Source: Aromatoleum anaerobium (GTDB lineage Bacteria > Pseudomonadota > Gammaproteobacteria > Burkholderiales > Rhodocyclaceae). Taken from it: DNA of 64,000 nt. Location: the NCBI RefSeq assembly GCF_012910705.2, contig NZ_WTVG02000039.1:124001-188000 (forward strand), in the 5' to 3' direction. The translations under genes were made by a program, and so were the position numbers. A model generated the notes under the pieces. That model was given only the letters and a program-made list of their open reading frames with translations. It had not been told where the DNA came from and made no database searches. Below, piece after piece: positions 35,977-42,572 of the stretch (within the stretch, counting starts at the first letter, position 1; each line of letters begins with the position of its first letter).

Positions 35977-38694
35977 ATGAAATATCTCCTCGCTGTCCTC
36001 GTGTTCTTGGTTTCGGCACTGCCTGCCGCAGCAGGCGAAACCCTGACACTCGGGGTATTGGCCTATCGCCCCAAACCCCTCGTCGAAGCGAGCTACCAGC
36101 CGCTGGCCGAATACCTGAGCACCGAATTGCGGGACACCCGGGTCGTCCTCACGGTGCTCGACGGACACGAAATGAAAGCGGCGATGGCGAACAATCGTCT
36201 CGACCTCGCTTTCACAACTCCGAGCCACTATCTCGTCCTGCGCGCCCAGAACGCGCTCACCGGCGCATTGGCCACCGTGGTCAGCCGCAGGGAGGGCGAG
36301 GCGGCGGATTCACTGGGAGGCGTGATCGTTACCGCCTCGGGACGAAAGTACATCCAGGGTCTCGACGACCTGGAGGGCCGCAAGATCGCGATCCCCAGCC
36401 AGGAATACCTGGCAGGCCATCAGGCACAGGCCTACGAACTCCTGCAGCGCGGCATCCGCCTGCCGAGGGATGCCGAAATCCTCGAAGTCGGCAACCACGA
36501 CGCAGTGATCGACGCGGTGTTGTCCGGCACGGCCGAGGTGGGTTTCATCCGCTCCGGCATTCTCGAGTCGCTGGCTGCAGCGGGCAGAATCGATTCCGCG
36601 GATTTCAAGATCATCAACCGTCAGTATCTCCCGGGCTTTCCCTATCAAGTATCGACCCGCCTGTACCCGGAATGGCCGCTGGTCGCGTTGCCTCATGTCG
36701 ACGCCCGCACGACCCGACGCATTGCCCGCGCGCTGCTCGCCCTGGAGCACAACCATCCCGCTGCGCGTGCCGCCGGCATCGCAGGTTTCACGATCGCCGC
36801 CGATTACCTGTCGGTCGAGAAGCTGGCCAAGGCGTTGCATTTGCCTCCTTTCGACGCCACGCCAGACGTCACGGTCATCGACCTGTGGCAAAACTACCAG
36901 GCCTGGATCCTCGCGCTGTCGGCGCTCCTGCTGCTGCTGACGGGGATGACGATCCGCATGGCTCGTGGCGAGCGCAGGTTGCGCGAACAGAGCCAGCGCC
37001 TCGCGGAAGTGATCTGGGGCACAAATATCGGTACCTGGGAATGGGAGGTCGACACCGGCCTCGCCACGTTCAACGAGCGCTGGGCGGAAATCAGCGGGTA
37101 CACGCTCGGCGAAATCTCGCCGGTCGACATCAACACCGGCAGGAATCTTTCGCATCCCGACGATCTCGAACGCTCGAACGCTCTGCTGGAGCGCTGTTTC
37201 AGGCGTGAAAATGAAACCTACGAGTGCGAAATCCGCACACGCCACAAGAACGGCAGCTGGGTCTGGGTGCTCGATCGAGGCCGCGTCGTGGAATGGACGC
37301 ACGACGGCCGGCCGCGCCGGATGTCGGGGACTCGCCAGGACATCAGCGCGCAAAAAAAGGCCGCGGCGCTCGTCGCCGGCGACAAGGAGCGGCTGCACAC
37401 GATCTTCGAGATCATCCCTGTCGGCATCATGCTGACCGATCGCGAGGGGCGGATCGTCGAGTGCAATTCCGCCTCCGAACGGATGCTCGGAATCGGCAAG
37501 TCGCAATTGCTCACGCAGTCGGTCGGCGGGGCCGGATGGGACGTTTTCAAGGCGGACGGCACCCCGATGGCAGCGGCCGAGTATGCGGGCGCGCGGGCGC
37601 TCGCCGAGCAGCGTCCGATCCATTACAGCAGCATGGAAGTGCGCACGCCCTGCAGCAGCACCTGGCTGCGCGTCAGCGCGACGCCGCTGAACCACCCACT
37701 CTACGGAGTGGTCATCGCGCACATCGACGTCACCGACAAGCGCAAGACCGAAGCCCGCCTGCGGCTCGCCGCCAGCGTGTTCACGCACGCCCGGGAGGGC
37801 ATCATCATCACCGACGCACAGGCCAGGATCATCGAGGTCAACGAAGCCTTCACCGCCGTCACGGGGTATCGACGCGACGAGGTGTCGGGCCAGTCGCTGC
37901 AGGCCCTCCAGTCCGGGCTCCATCCGGAGAAGTATTACAAAGCGATATGGCGCGCGCTCCTTGAAAGCGGGCACTGGCACGGCGAGATGTGGAACCGGCG
38001 CAAGAATGGCGAGGTGTATGCCGAAATGCTGAACATCAGCGCAGTGCGCGATTCCCACGGGCGCACGCAGAACTACGTTTTGCTATTTACCGACATCACG
38101 CCGCTGAAGGACCACCAGAAGCAGCTGGAGCACATCGCCTACCATGATCCGCTGACGAACCTGCCCAACCGCGCGCTGTACTCGGACCGCCTGCAACAAG
38201 CGATGGCCCAGTGCAGCCGGCGCAGTCAGCACGTGGCAATAGCCTATATCGATCTGGATGGCTTCAAGGCAGTGAACGACAACCATGGCCACCCCGTTGG
38301 CGACCAGTTGCTGGTCAACATCGCCCTGCGGCTGAGGGAAGTGCTGCGGGAAGGGGATACGTTGGCGCGCCTCGGCGGGGACGAGTTCGCGGCCGTGCTC
38401 GTCGACCTCGACAATCCCGCGGACTGCCAGCCGGTGCTCGAGCGTCTGCTCCACGCAGCGGCCGATCCGGTTCCGGTCGGCACGCTCATGCTGGGCGTTT
38501 CCGCCAGCATCGGGGTGACGCTTTTCCCTCAGGACAAGGTCGATGCGGACCAGCTTGTACGCCACGCCGACACGGCGATGTACCGGGCGAAGAGGGCGGG
38601 CAAGAACACTTACCGGTTCTTCGACACGCTGCGGGACTCATCTCAAGAGGCGCGCAGCAGCACGGCGGTTTCCGCCACGGCCTTGCCGGACTGA
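35977..38694 (+). CDS. Diguanylate cyclase with PhnD-like periplasmic and PAS sensor domains
   Basis: 905 residues. A signal peptide (residues 1-19, ending PAAAG) leads to a phosphonate-binding-protein-like domain (about 20-280: LTLGVLAYRPKPLVEASY, NNRLDLAFTTPSHYLVL, LEGRKIAIPSQEYLAGHQ). A membrane helix near 310-327 follows, then three PAS domains (about 345-465, 475-595, 605-730; e.g. WEWEVDTGLATFNERWAEI) and a C-terminal GGDEF domain. The active site LARLGGDEFAAVL is intact, and RxxD (REGD) lies five residues before it, so product inhibition at the I-site is likely. It should make c-di-GMP in response to a periplasmic ligand and internal cues. Ligand identity cannot be read. Confidence 0.93.
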   Translation: MKYLLAVLVFLVSALPAAAGETLTLGVLAYRPKPLVEASYQPLAEYLSTELRDTRVVLTVLDGHEMKAAMANNRLDLAFTTPSHYLVLRAQNALTGALATVVSRREGEAADSLGGVIVTASGRKYIQGLDDLEGRKIAIPSQEYLAGHQAQAYELLQRGIRLPRDAEILEVGNHDAVIDAVLSGTAEVGFIRSGILESLAAAGRIDSADFKIINRQYLPGFPYQVSTRLYPEWPLVALPHVDARTTRRIARALLALEHNHPAARAAGIAGFTIAADYLSVEKLAKALHLPPFDATPDVTVIDLWQNYQAWILALSALLLLLTGMTIRMARGERRLREQSQRLAEVIWGTNIGTWEWEVDTGLATFNERWAEISGYTLGEISPVDINTGRNLSHPDDLERSNALLERCFRRENETYECEIRTRHKNGSWVWVLDRGRVVEWTHDGRPRRMSGTRQDISAQKKAAALVAGDKERLHTIFEIIPVGIMLTDREGRIVECNSASERMLGIGKSQLLTQSVGGAGWDVFKADGTPMAAAEYAGARALAEQRPIHYSSMEVRTPCSSTWLRVSATPLNHPLYGVVIAHIDVTDKRKTEARLRLAASVFTHAREGIIITDAQARIIEVNEAFTAVTGYRRDEVSGQSLQALQSGLHPEKYYKAIWRALLESGHWHGEMWNRRKNGEVYAEMLNISAVRDSHGRTQNYVLLFTDITPLKDHQKQLEHIAYHDPLTNLPNRALYSDRLQQAMAQCSRRSQHVAIAYIDLDGFKAVNDNHGHPVGDQLLVNIALRLREVLREGDTLARLGGDEFAAVLVDLDNPADCQPVLERLLHAAADPVPVGTLMLGVSASIGVTLFPQDKVDADQLVRHADTAMYRAKRAGKNTYRFFDTLRDSSQEARSSTAVSATALPD

Positions 38695-38721
38695 ATCGGG
38701 CCAAGACCGCCAAGACCTTAT

Positions 38722-39819
38722 CTACCCCGTCTTGTCACCCTCGTCGAAAAGCTTCGCCGCCTTGCTGGTGGTGACCGATCCCGCGCGGAAGTAGCGCATC
38801 ACCGACGGGATGCTGCGATGCCCGGTCAACGCCATGGTTTCTCCCAGGGGAATCTGCTGCTTCGCAGCCTCGGTCACGAACCCGGAACGCAGGGAGTGAG
38901 CACTGAAATCGCCGTCGAGGCCGGCAAGCAGGCACCGCTCCCGGACGATCGCGCGCACTGCGGAAGCGGACAGAGCTCCACGCAAATATCCGTCCTTGCC
39001 GATCTGGCGGAACAACGGCCCGGAAGCCAGACCGGTTGCCGCAAGCCAGTCGGCCACAGCGCTGCCGGCGGCGCCGACCACGGGCTTGAGGTCGTCTGCC
39101 TTGACGGTTCCCGACTGGTTCGTTTTCGATGCGCCGAGTTCAAAGATGAATTCATCGGCGCCGACCCTTTTCAGGTCTTCCACGCGAAGGCTCACGATTT
39201 CGGAGCGGCGGCGCCCACCTGAAGCCCATCCCAGCAGCAGGATCGCACGGTCCCGCAAGCCCTTGAGCGAGTCGTCGCACGTACCGACCAGCTGCTCAAG
39301 CAGTTCCCGGGTCAGGGCAGCCTTGCCTCGCGGGCGCTCGCCGCGTTTTGCGTAGGAACGCCGGGTGCGGGCAATGAGATCCCGCACTGCCGGGCTTCGG
39401 CACGGGTTCTCGAGTTCGGGGCTGCGCTTGTGCAGCGATGACAGGACCGACACCCGGTGATTGAGCGTGGATAGCGCCATCGGGCCGATTTTCGCCTTGT
39501 ATCCCTTTTCTACCAGGATCTCGTCGAGCGCATCGGGCAAGTCGCAGCGCAGCCCGCCGGACGTCGTTCGCTGCGCATGATCGACGATGAACTGGATCAC
39601 GGCGGGTACCGGCACCGGAAACTTGAGCGGCTTTCGATAGCGCAAGGCAAACCAGGCAGCCCAGTAGCGAAGTGCGGCACGGTAGCTGGCATCGGTGTTG
39701 GCGGATGTTCCCTCGGCGAGGATTTCATCGACAGCCTGTTGCGTCATCGGCGCCAAAGCGTCCGGATCCAGTACTGCAACAGTGTTTGCCAATGCGGGCA
39801 GAGTGTCGTCTAGGTCCAT
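38722..39819 (-). CDS. tnpS: Tyrosine recombinase, TnpS-like cointegrate resolvase
   Basis: 365 residues from the ATG at 39819 (open back to 39900, but that part overlaps the palindrome region). A SAM-like N-terminal domain (about 25-130) precedes the catalytic domain. Active-site residues are visible: Arg in ASGGRRRSEIVSLRVED, His-x-x-Arg in FSAHSLRSGFV, His in LTGHRSIPSVMRYF and the nucleophile Tyr in RYFRAGS. It is divergent from a KfrA-like coiled-coil gene with a perfect 13-7-13 palindrome between them. Exactly this layout (recombinase, site, DNA-binding helper) is known from TnpS/rst/TnpT of Tn4651-type transposons. No transposase is nearby, so it is an orphan module. If not TnpS, it is a chromosomal integrase of unknown target. 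Confidence 0.8.
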   Translation of the reverse strand: MDLDDTLPALANTVAVLDPDALAPMTQQAVDEILAEGTSANTDASYRAALRYWAAWFALRYRKPLKFPVPVPAVIQFIVDHAQRTTSGGLRCDLPDALDEILVEKGYKAKIGPMALSTLNHRVSVLSSLHKRSPELENPCRSPAVRDLIARTRRSYAKRGERPRGKAALTRELLEQLVGTCDDSLKGLRDRAILLLGWASGGRRRSEIVSLRVEDLKRVGADEFIFELGASKTNQSGTVKADDLKPVVGAAGSAVADWLAATGLASGPLFRQIGKDGYLRGALSASAVRAIVRERCLLAGLDGDFSAHSLRSGFVTEAAKQQIPLGETMALTGHRSIPSVMRYFRAGSVTTSKAAKLFDEGDKTG

Positions 39820-39850
39820 GTCGTGCTCTTCGTGTTTTTGTATGCTGTAA

Positions 39851-39870
39851 TGTGTAGTGTATTTTACACA
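39851..39870. promoter_or_regulatory. 20-bp imperfect palindrome, possible helper-protein site
   Basis: TGTGTA and TACACA flank an 8-base centre (GTGTATTT). It lies 11 bp from the 33-bp palindrome, inside the divergent region. In Tn4651-type systems the helper protein binds an accessory inverted repeat beside the crossover site; this is the best candidate. It may equally be part of the tnpS promoter. Confidence 0.5.
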
Positions 39871-39880
39871 AATGTGGCTG

Positions 39881-39913
39881 TTACCTACGATAACTTTCAA
39901 TTATCGTAGGTAA
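39881..39913. other. Perfect 13-7-13 palindrome, probable recombination core site
   Basis: TTACCTACGATAA (39881-39893) and TTATCGTAGGTAA (39901-39913) are exact reverse complements with a 7-base spacer CTTTCAA. Arm length, perfect symmetry and asymmetric short spacer are those of tyrosine-recombinase core sites such as lox and dif. It sits between the divergent recombinase and helper genes. No second copy was seen in this window. An operator role for the KfrA-like protein is the alternative. Confidence 0.75.
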
Positions 39914-39947
39914 TAATCAATGCGAGAAAGAGGGGAGGTCAAGCGAA

Positions 39948-41039
39948 ATGCTCGAAAGTGGGAAGCGTGGCGGCGTCGGCCAACGGGACGTTTGGGAAGC
40001 CGCGGACGCGTTGTTGCTGAAGGGATTCCGGCCCACCGTCGAACGTATCCGGGCCGAGATCGGACGAGGTTCGCCGAACACGGTCGGACCCCATCTGGAT
40101 TCGTGGTTCAAGGCGCTCGGTGGCCGAATCCAGGATCCTTCGGCCTTTTGTGCACCGTCCGAGGCGCCCGATGCGATCAGCCAGGCCGCCCGGACGTTTT
40201 GGCATGCGGCCTTGACGACGGCGCGCCAGGTGTGCACGGATGAATTGACCCTGGATCGCGAGGCCCTTGCGCAGGAAGCCGCCCGCATCGAGAAGGAACG
40301 TGCCGATTTGGCTGGGCAACGGATTCGCCTCGCCGACGCAGCCGAAACACAACAGACGCTTATCGACACGCTGAAGACGCAAGTGGAGGATGCCAAAGCC
40401 GCCCTCAACGCCACCGTTGCGGAACGCGTGTCCCTTATTGCAAGCCATGAACGGCAAATTGCGCAACTCGACGCGGAGCGGGAAACGCTCAAAGACAGGC
40501 TCGAAGCAGCCGGCGAAAAGCTGATCGCCCTGCAAAACGAGATCGGCGCCGTCAAGGCGGGTTGCGACCGCGATATCAAGGAGGCGCTCCTTCGTTTCGA
40601 TCAGGCGCGCAGCGAAGCCCGGGTGGCGCAAAACGCGCTGGCGGAACTTCGCCAACACGTTTCTGCGCAAGACACCGCCCTGGCTTCGATGACGAAGCAG
40701 CTTGCGACGGTGGACGCAGAGCGGAAAATCGCCCTTCAGGCAAATGTCACGCTGGAGGACGCTCTGGCAGCCGGAAAGGCGCAGGCGCTGGAAGCCAGAA
40801 GCAAGGTGCACACCCTCGAGACCGAACTCCGCCAGGCCGACGCGGTTCAGGCAACCCTGCAGGCTGCGCTCGACGCCGAGCGCTCACGCGCCCATGAACT
40901 CGCCCTCCTCCTCACCACCAGCCAAGGGGAAATCGTTCAGGCTCTGCGTTCCCTGGAGCAGTCGAAAAAAGACTCGCCGGCCGGACTTGATCCCCGTCGC
41001 CGAACGACCATAAGAAAGCGTGGAGTCCCGCTGCGATGA
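39948..41039 (+). CDS. tnpT: KfrA-like coiled-coil DNA-binding protein (TnpT-like helper)
   Basis: 363 residues. The N-terminal about 60 residues are a KfrA_N-type helix-turn-helix: DVWEAADALLLKGFRPTVER and RGSPNTVGPHLDSWFKAL. Residues about 95-345 form one long coiled coil rich in Ala, Glu, Gln and Arg (ERETLKDRLEAAGEKLIAL, LETELRQADAVQATLQAAL). GGGGAGG precedes the ATG by about 8 nt. In Tn4651 the equivalent TnpT binds the resolution site and boosts TnpS; in plasmids KfrA binds its own promoter. Both ideas fit the palindromes just upstream. Convergence with the signalling block is not implied; it is a separate module. Confidence 0.8.
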   Translation: MLESGKRGGVGQRDVWEAADALLLKGFRPTVERIRAEIGRGSPNTVGPHLDSWFKALGGRIQDPSAFCAPSEAPDAISQAARTFWHAALTTARQVCTDELTLDREALAQEAARIEKERADLAGQRIRLADAAETQQTLIDTLKTQVEDAKAALNATVAERVSLIASHERQIAQLDAERETLKDRLEAAGEKLIALQNEIGAVKAGCDRDIKEALLRFDQARSEARVAQNALAELRQHVSAQDTALASMTKQLATVDAERKIALQANVTLEDALAAGKAQALEARSKVHTLETELRQADAVQATLQAALDAERSRAHELALLLTTSQGEIVQALRSLEQSKKDSPAGLDPRRRTTIRKRGVPLR

Positions 41040-41180
41040 AAGGAGAGCAGTCTCCCGACGCAGTGCCGGAGAGGCGCGCGTGCCGCACGCGGAACTGGAT
41101 CCGCCGGGCCGGCTGGTATGTAGATGGTTCTTTTGGCTAAACTCCGCCTTCTTCCGCAACCGACCGGGAACCCCCGCTCG

Positions 41181-42572
41181 ATGTCCGCCCCGGTCCTTTT
41201 ACCATTGAGCGCTCCCGAGTCGTCGCTCACCCTCGCCTACCGCCTGTTTCATCACGCCTGGCCGGTGCTCGTTGCACAGCTGCTGTCGATGAGCATGCTG
41301 ATCGCCGACACCCTCATCACCGGACGCTACGGCACCCTCGACTTGGCCGCGGTCGCGGTCGGCAGCGGCGTGTACATTTCGATCGTGATGCTGCTTGTCG
41401 GCGTGCTGCAGGCGGTCGCTCCGACCGTCGCCCATCATTTCGGCGCCCGCCGCGTCGATGCCATCGGCCCGGCGCTGCAGCAAGGATTCTGGCTGGCGCT
41501 GATGCTCGCGTTGCCCGGCATCGCGCTGCTCGCCTTCCCCGGTTTCCTGCTCGAATTCAGCAGCGTGCCCGCCGACGTGGCCGGGAAGACCCGCGATTAT
41601 TTGCTCGCGACCGCGTTCGGCCTGCCCGCGGTCCTGCTGTACCGCACTTTCTACGCTTTCAACAACGCGCTGGGCCGCCCCCGCGCGCTGATGATGATCA
41701 GCTTCATCGTCACCGCGACGCATGTTCCGCTTGCCTGGGCATTGGTGCACGGCGGCTTCGGCCTGCCACCCCTCGGCGTGCTCGGCTGCGGCATCTCGAC
41801 TGCAATCGTGAACTGGATCGCGTTTGCGTGCGGCGCAGGCTATCTCGCCCGCAATCGCGATTACCGTCCCTATCGGCTGTTTGCCAACTGGCAGCCGCCC
41901 CGCCGCGGCGACATCCTTGCCCTGCTGAAACTGGGCATCCCGATGGGCCTGTCGACGTTCATCGAAGTCTCGTCGTTCACGCTGATCGCGCTGTTCGCCG
42001 CCCGGCTCGGTGCCGAGGCGGTGGCCGGACACCGCGTCGTCGCAAACCTGGCCGCGCTGATCTACATGCTTCCGCTGGCGATATCGATCTCGATCCTGGT
42101 GCTCGTCGGGCAGGCTGCGGGCGCACGTGAGCCGGCGCGCGCGCGGACGACGGTCCGCGTCGGGATGGGCCTGACGGTCGCCCTCGTCGCCTTGATCGGC
42201 GTGCTGCTGTGGGTCGGACGCGAGCCGGTCGTCGCGCTGTTTTCCGCAGACCCGGCAGTGCGCGCAGTGGCGCTCGGGCTGGTGTTCTACATCTGCATCT
42301 ATCAGATCTTCGACGCCGTGCAGACGGTCGCGGCCCACGCGCTGCGCGGCTACAAGGTGACCTTCATGCCGATGCTGCTGCACGCGCTGTGTTTCTGGGG
42401 GATCGCGCTGGCCGGAGGCTACTGGCTCGCGTTCCACGCCCCCGGGCGCGAACAGTCGCCTACCGTGGCCGGCTTCTGGGAAGCCAGTGTCGTCGCAACG
42501 ATCCTCGCGTCCGTACTGTTCGGCTGGCTGCTGCGCGTCGTGATGCGGCGCCCGCGAGACGCGCGGGCCTGA
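41181..42572 (+). CDS. MATE-family multidrug/toxin exporter
   Basis: 463 residues from ATG 41181; an in-frame ATG at 41124 would add 19 polar residues with no family match. Twelve hydrophobic segments are apparent, in two similar halves of six. The first half begins AWPVLVAQLLSMSMLIADTL, with LQAVAPTVAHHFGARR; the second repeats it as LGIPMGLSTFIEVSSFT and LVLVGQAAGAREPAR. These are NorM-type MATE marks. It would export cationic compounds against Na+ or H+. It is convergent with the M61 peptidase gene, 4 bp apart. Confidence 0.92.
   Translation: MSAPVLLPLSAPESSLTLAYRLFHHAWPVLVAQLLSMSMLIADTLITGRYGTLDLAAVAVGSGVYISIVMLLVGVLQAVAPTVAHHFGARRVDAIGPALQQGFWLALMLALPGIALLAFPGFLLEFSSVPADVAGKTRDYLLATAFGLPAVLLYRTFYAFNNALGRPRALMMISFIVTATHVPLAWALVHGGFGLPPLGVLGCGISTAIVNWIAFACGAGYLARNRDYRPYRLFANWQPPRRGDILALLKLGIPMGLSTFIEVSSFTLIALFAARLGAEAVAGHRVVANLAALIYMLPLAISISILVLVGQAAGAREPARARTTVRVGMGLTVALVALIGVLLWVGREPVVALFSADPAVRAVALGLVFYICIYQIFDAVQTVAAHALRGYKVTFMPMLLHALCFWGIALAGGYWLAFHAPGREQSPTVAGFWEASVVATILASVLFGWLLRVVMRRPRDARA

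Follow-up and report, generated by a model that had tools for sequence, protein, structure and literature searches.

Among the described tyrosine recombinase systems, the dif site of XerCD has an 11-6-11 layout, loxP carries an 8-bp spacer, and in the TnpS/TnpT/rst set of Tn4651-group transposons TnpT has been proposed to act at rst as a helper that shapes the synapse. The module described here lies in a 64-kb stretch of Aromatoleum anaerobium DNA (contig NZ_WTVG02000039.1; hereafter the window) and consists of a Cre/TnpS-type tyrosine recombinase, a divergently encoded KfrA_N protein and a 33-bp palindromic site between their genes. It is probably a system of Cre type with two protein components that resolves chromosome dimers and has replaced XerCD/dif in one Aromatoleum clade, which includes A. 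aromaticum EbN1. The available part of a 2009 study by Carnoy & Roten (PMC2731167) reports EbN1 to be without dif/Xer and says that evidence for Cre/loxP-type systems in dif/Xer-deficient proteobacteria was lacking; it also describes that in E. coli loxP can replace dif when placed at the terminus, only there and with Cre. In the open-access literature searched, no published account of such a module was found.

The recombinase (365 aa; 38722-39819, minus strand) matches Pfam PF00589 Phage_integrase at 1.4e-15, and the TnpT-like helper (363 aa; 39948-41039, plus strand) has a KfrA_N DNA-binding domain (PF11740, 2.4e-27) and a coiled coil. All residues of the Cre catalytic set could be aligned and are present (R204, K232, H308, R311, H334 and Y343), with H334 at the position of a Trp in Cre and TnpS. 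An earlier note on this DNA, which had described an intact tyrosine recombinase diverging from a KfrA_N coiled-coil protein, was right on both proteins. Read from a TTG, the recombinase open reading frame (ORF) would span 38722-39900 (minus strand); the ATG at 39819 was chosen as the start because the longer version overlaps the second repeat of the intergenic region and half of the palindrome.

The presumed core recombination site, TTACCTACGATAA CTTTCAA TTATCGTAGGTAA, lies at 39881-39913 and is the perfect 13-7-13 palindrome seen by the earlier note: the arms (39881-39893 and 39901-39913) have 13 nt each, are 100% complementary and enclose an asymmetric spacer of 7 nt. The motif CGATAA-N7-TTATCG occurs once in the window, where 0.03 occurrences would be expected even with up to one mismatch, and within the 4.56-Mb genome the 13-mer arm is confined to the palindrome. 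The inner CGATAA/TTATCG is invariant in the four other Aromatoleum orthologs, which bears out a check set beforehand, namely that the palindrome should recur in orthologous pairs. The perfect 13-bp arms are peculiar to the window, the outer bases being incompletely paired in the other four. Beside the core, at 39840-39870, lies an A/T-rich inverted repeat, which presumably serves the KfrA_N protein as an operator or accessory site. The 20-bp inverted repeat that the earlier note placed at 39851-39870 is indeed there, in a block that is nearly identical in all five Aromatoleum orthologs apart from its last bases, but it is imperfect, with about 7 of 10 bp matching per arm (by eye).

The pair was found in 5 of 17 Aromatoleum genomes, including that of the window, and XerC and XerD were assessed in nine of the 17 with the XerD profile TIGR02225. 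None of the five module-bearing genomes had XerD or a second match of XerC strength, their best matches reaching 1e-42 to 1e-52; two of these carriers, EbN1 (G005) and G011, have single-contig chromosomes. All four module-free congeners assessed had XerD (1e-109 or better) together with a second match near 1e-78, taken as XerC. Dif-like sites were detected in 7 of the 12 module-free and in none of the five module-bearing Aromatoleum genomes.

Module copies are located at or near the replication terminus in the sampled genomes. Of 12 module-bearing genomes sampled for GC skew, seven had the module within the sampled interval in which the skew turns from plus to minus (G062, G138, G394, G005, G067, G068 and G069; for the last three the sampling points were placed around the module). 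Finer sampling in EbN1 put the switch at 3.778-3.800 Mb and the module at 3.746-3.747 Mb, i.e. 31-53 kb apart. On a 938-kb Variovorax replicon the skew was positive at the module (481 kb), negative at 527 kb and weakly positive at 647 kb. Among 17 module-bearing genomes of other genera, close matches to dif were found in eight, six of which had the match on the contig of the module, at distances of 6, 26, 44, 116, 157 and 166 kb. The motif GGGNAGGG, which we take to be similar to the FtsK-orienting polar sequence (KOPS) of E. coli, stood at 27 to 3 on one arm and 9 to 17 on the other in the sampled G011 DNA (small counts), and its strand bias turned between 3.86 and 4.06 Mb, the module being at 3.979 Mb. 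The MATE gene that adjoins the pair in the carriers was 38, 254 and 564 kb from the dif-like site in three congeners without the module. A Fisher combination over five single-contig chromosomes gave p ~2e-5, a value that serves only as a guide, as it is post hoc and combines dif positions with skew midpoints, and as two of the genomes are sisters.

Nearness to the terminus could also be an accident of location, if the terminus tolerates insertions and modules simply collect there, with Aromatoleum dimers being resolved by another, unseen system. Occurrence is patchy (13 of 399 order members searched, counting the genome of the window), the terminus positions were taken for this module alone among integrases, and the available part of Carnoy & Roten (PMC2731167) states that terminus regions favour DNA mobility. 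Such an accident is nevertheless very improbable given that the recombinase tree mostly follows host genus, that flanks are common within several genera, mainly on the recombinase side, and that XerC and XerD have been lost, as well as given the selection on the pair. Across the Aromatoleum orthologs both genes are under purifying selection, the ratio of nonsynonymous to synonymous substitution rates (Ka/Ks) being 0.05-0.11 for the recombinase (five orthologs) and 0.18-0.27 for the KfrA_N helper; three neighbouring genes gave 0.11-0.21, above the recombinase values (10 genome pairs per gene, six for the GGDEF gene). The same figures bear on a different proposal, that the module is a terminus organiser or regulator in which the KfrA_N protein shapes or tethers terminus DNA and the recombinase is of minor importance. 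A KfrA-type coiled-coil DNA-binding protein and a site near the terminus would suit such a role, which is improbable all the same, since the recombinase is more strongly selected than its partner, keeps its catalytic residues and stands without a detected partner in 7 of the 80 loci described below.

A single scan across bacterial and archaeal genomes returned 385 relatives. The best 80 loci were retained, almost all of them carrying Burkholderiales names; most are on draft contigs, which do not always tell a chromosomal from a plasmid copy. A. buckelii (L083) is among the 80 as well as among the five Aromatoleum carriers and is counted in both. A divergent helper was found within 1.5 kb in 71 of the 80 loci, two more being too short to judge, and the exact core CGATAA-N7-TTATCG lies upstream of the recombinase in 73. 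The remaining seven comprise four cores that are one base off and three loci with none, one of these cut by the contig end. The 73 sites are the only exact cores in the 974 kb covered by the 80 loci, and sampled genome DNA amounting to 2.43 Mb had no exact core. The 7-bp spacer of these cores (core positions 14-20) is itself non-random, its fourth base being T in 68 and its fifth base C in 57 of the 73 loci.

Relatives with 51-56% identity reside on Comamonadaceae replicons of 320-938 kb, and the exact core was found in seven of nine fetched plasmid loci, an intact divergent KfrA-like gene being annotated in only four of the nine. Several plasmid copies also have A/T-rich repeats between recombinase and core. 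These relatives would fit a plasmid or chromid stability module retained from an integrated large plasmid, which may recombine its own site without resolving chromosome dimers. For the locus in the window this origin is unlikely, the neighbours examined being of chromosomal type (Pfam) and the orthologs sitting in the same place in five genomes; purifying selection, a terminus position in several families and the missing XerC/XerD also argue against it. As separate observations on these replicons, the Comamonadaceae megaplasmid copies (L011, L075, L077 and L078) often lie beside toxin-antitoxin genes (VapBC, BrnTA, MazEF), and plasmid 3 of Variovorax RA8 (L008) holds at least two integrase/KfrA-like pairs.

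The resemblance to Tn4651 suggested by the earlier note holds for the parts of the set and not for their order. The recombinase is 26% identical to Tn4651 TnpS over 287 aa (E 7e-20), and the KfrA_N helper is 28% identical to TnpT over 127 aa (E 3e-7). Both systems pair a tyrosine recombinase with a divergent KfrA_N-like helper, with the core inverted repeat between the genes and an A/T-rich repeat next to it, and rst-type cores share the 7-bp spacer and the inner ATAA/TTAT (GGATAA-N7-TTATCC in a Xanthomonas Tn3-family element, AATAA-N7-TTATT in Tn4651). In the module, however, the parts run recombinase-operator-core-helper, whereas in Tn4651 and the Xanthomonas element the helper and recombinase change places (T-operator-core-S). 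The module also differs in standing alone near the terminus, in having His334 for the Trp of TnpS, and in lacking both tnpA and terminal repeats.

That the module is a remnant of a Tn4651-group Tn3 transposon, one of the options in the earlier note ("orphan", "remnant"), would account for the similarity to TnpS/TnpT and for the rst-like site, but is extremely improbable. A Tn4651-type tnpA is near only 1 of the 80 loci within the fetched flanks, the pair and its site occur without tnpA in many genomes, and no inverted repeat flanks the module within 38500-41300. No match to Tn3 tnpA was found on the contig of the window, the pieces in its own genome being on another contig, and in the recombinase tree, ordered for the most part by host genus, TnpS falls outside. 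A transposon of this group was therefore rejected on the tnpA, terminal-repeat and part-order tests. Two further features of the same genome (G000) concern mobile DNA elsewhere: contig C1 (L003-L007) has several Tn3-family transposase pieces in about 15 kb, three of five with an in-frame stop, and contigs C2, C8 and C13 carry four equal-scoring copies of a 402-aa tyrosine recombinase, probably a mobile element.

An inversion switch, also raised by the earlier note, is unsupported, as only a single site was found by the arm search of the genome and the core search of the window; one core per module fits resolution, not inversion. Multimer resolution was the best fit of the three options considered there, with the difference that the chromosome itself, rather than an integrated replicon, would be resolved. 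The parts, their conservation, the selection on them, the nearness to the terminus and the absence of XerC/XerD are results of computation; beyond them we infer the following course of events. An odd number of crossovers would join the sister chromosomes into a dimer, whose two 33-bp sites near the terminus would meet at division. Four recombinase protomers would synapse the sites and use Tyr343 to cut at the borders of the 7-bp spacer, acting there as Cre does at loxP, to give two monomers, while the asymmetric spacer would lend the reaction its direction. The KfrA_N protein may bind the adjacent A/T-rich repeat and control the divergent promoters, and would perhaps, or even probably, shape the synapse; a link to FtsK is conceivable as well.

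Several observations weigh against dimer resolution by the module at the terminus, or limit how far it can be extended. In 4 of the 12 genomes sampled for skew the module is about 0.1-0.6 Mb off the switch (G011, G061, G063 and G064) and one genome was unreadable (G066), while in G138 the skew is weak beyond the switch. Contig C1 of G061 has two plus-to-minus switches, and its second dif-like site is 1.7 Mb away from the module; in G064 a weak dif match with two mismatches is about 0.96 Mb from the module. The copy of Comamonas testosteroni NFYY023 (L116:1-13047), though at the terminus, has no detected KfrA_N partner or core in its locus; partner and core are both present with the copies of strains JL40 and ATCC 11996. 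All 11 module-bearing genomes of other genera that were assessed keep XerC and XerD. The XerCD loss is one event in one clade, and the correlation between module and XerCD consequently counts once. The dif pattern is insensitive, missing 5 of the 12 module-free Aromatoleum genomes, including G012, which has XerC/XerD, as well as G062, G063 and G067, all with XerC/XerD; because of these misses the dif result is the weaker evidence. Finally, the available part of Kono et al. 2011 (PMC3025954) states that dif is predicted for EbN1.

Less clear is what the module does in hosts that have XerCD, as other Burkholderiales do, where it may resolve dimers as a second such system or be a stability module that is retained near the terminus. 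A possible wider interpretation, offered tentatively, is that across the Burkholderiales a recombinase of Cre type and its KfrA_N partner make up an old, terminus-bound system, passed on mostly by vertical descent, that resolves dimers of chromosomes and large secondary replicons. It would work beside XerCD in most hosts and would have wholly replaced XerC/XerD/dif in one Aromatoleum clade, and the KfrA_N protein would supply a control linked to terminus or division that Cre/loxP lacks.

The flanks of the module in the window are a PAS/GGDEF protein (35977-38694, plus strand) and a MATE exporter (41124-42572, plus strand), both assigned by Pfam, which agrees with the c-di-GMP gene and MATE exporter named by the earlier note. 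Each time the pair is present in Aromatoleum it adjoins the MATE gene (in 4 of 4 orthologs by tblastn), and in the other 12 genomes the MATE gene is present without the pair, bringing the gene to 17 of 17. The GGDEF gene is on the same side in three of four orthologs, with no full copy in G008. In the interval between the GGDEF and recombinase genes (L043-L046), G007 has an extra ORF of 426 aa, G011 has two transposase ORFs that look IS3-like by eye, and G008 has only GGDEF-gene fragments. A cargo or hypervariable locus was considered on account of this variation among orthologs, but it looks like ordinary gain and loss.

For EbN1, in which Carnoy & Roten (2009) found no dif/Xer, the module near the terminus is a concrete candidate for dimer resolution, and a published question on this strain thereby becomes directly testable in a culturable environmental organism. 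If the proposal is true, the module would be a natural counterpart of the artificial E. coli case, with a Cre-type enzyme in charge of resolving chromosome dimers. The module is relevant as well to the conclusion given in the available part of a 2025 study on Enterobacteriaceae (PMC11724359), that XerCD under the control of FtsK is required by large replicons and that recombinases of other kinds are not easily brought under such control. The module further offers a new Cre-like recombinase together with its site.

The solved structures nearest to the recombinase are those of Cre, both by profile and by fold. Cre or its variant Tre made up the first 17 of 18 matches in a profile search of the PDB (best E 1.7e-17), and among the matches listed for a fold search with the predicted model (14 sequences; mean predicted local distance difference test score 75, predicted template modelling score 0.56) they held the top 33 places. 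To Cre of the P1 type the identity is 25.5% over 333 aa, and the 13-bp arms, the use of a single recombinase, the fold and the catalytic residues are alike. The module differs in its 33-bp site with a 7-bp spacer (34 and 8 bp in loxP), and, unlike Cre/loxP of phage P1, it has a KfrA_N partner, a chromosomal home and His334 for Cre Trp315. As with XerCD/dif, XerS/difSL, XerH/difH and XerL, the site of the module is palindromic, low in GC and close to the GC-skew switch; XerS is likewise linked to its own site in the available part of Carnoy & Roten (PMC2731167).

The recombinase nevertheless falls outside the Xer family, scoring far under the XerC, XerD and XerA cut-offs, and a tree of 61 rows sets XerC, XerD and an IncC recombinase apart from the module family, TnpS and Cre (100/99); the 13-7-13 site, in place of 11-6-11, and the KfrA_N partner are further differences. 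In the same tree, in which long branches leave the finer placement uncertain, Cre is joined by the two TnpS rows (97/80), and the module family stands apart with the Rhizobiaceae rows (96/75); rows of Curvibacter, Acidovorax and Variovorax are split, and plasmid and chromosomal rows intermix. The Rhizobiaceae plasmid integrases (Agrobacterium pA and R. leguminosarum pRL31b2) are 33-34% identical to the recombinase, and both of those examined have a CGATAA-N7-TTATCG palindrome upstream (L079:3562-3594 and L080:3758-3790). Unlike the module, they have no divergent KfrA_N-type gene annotated alongside, and Agrobacterium pA has a short ORF between site and integrase. Taken together, the module would act in the manner of chromosome dimer resolution systems but is not Xer; its parts are of the TnpS/TnpT/rst type, it is not a Tn4651-group transposon, and it is Cre-like with a 7-bp spacer and a partner protein.

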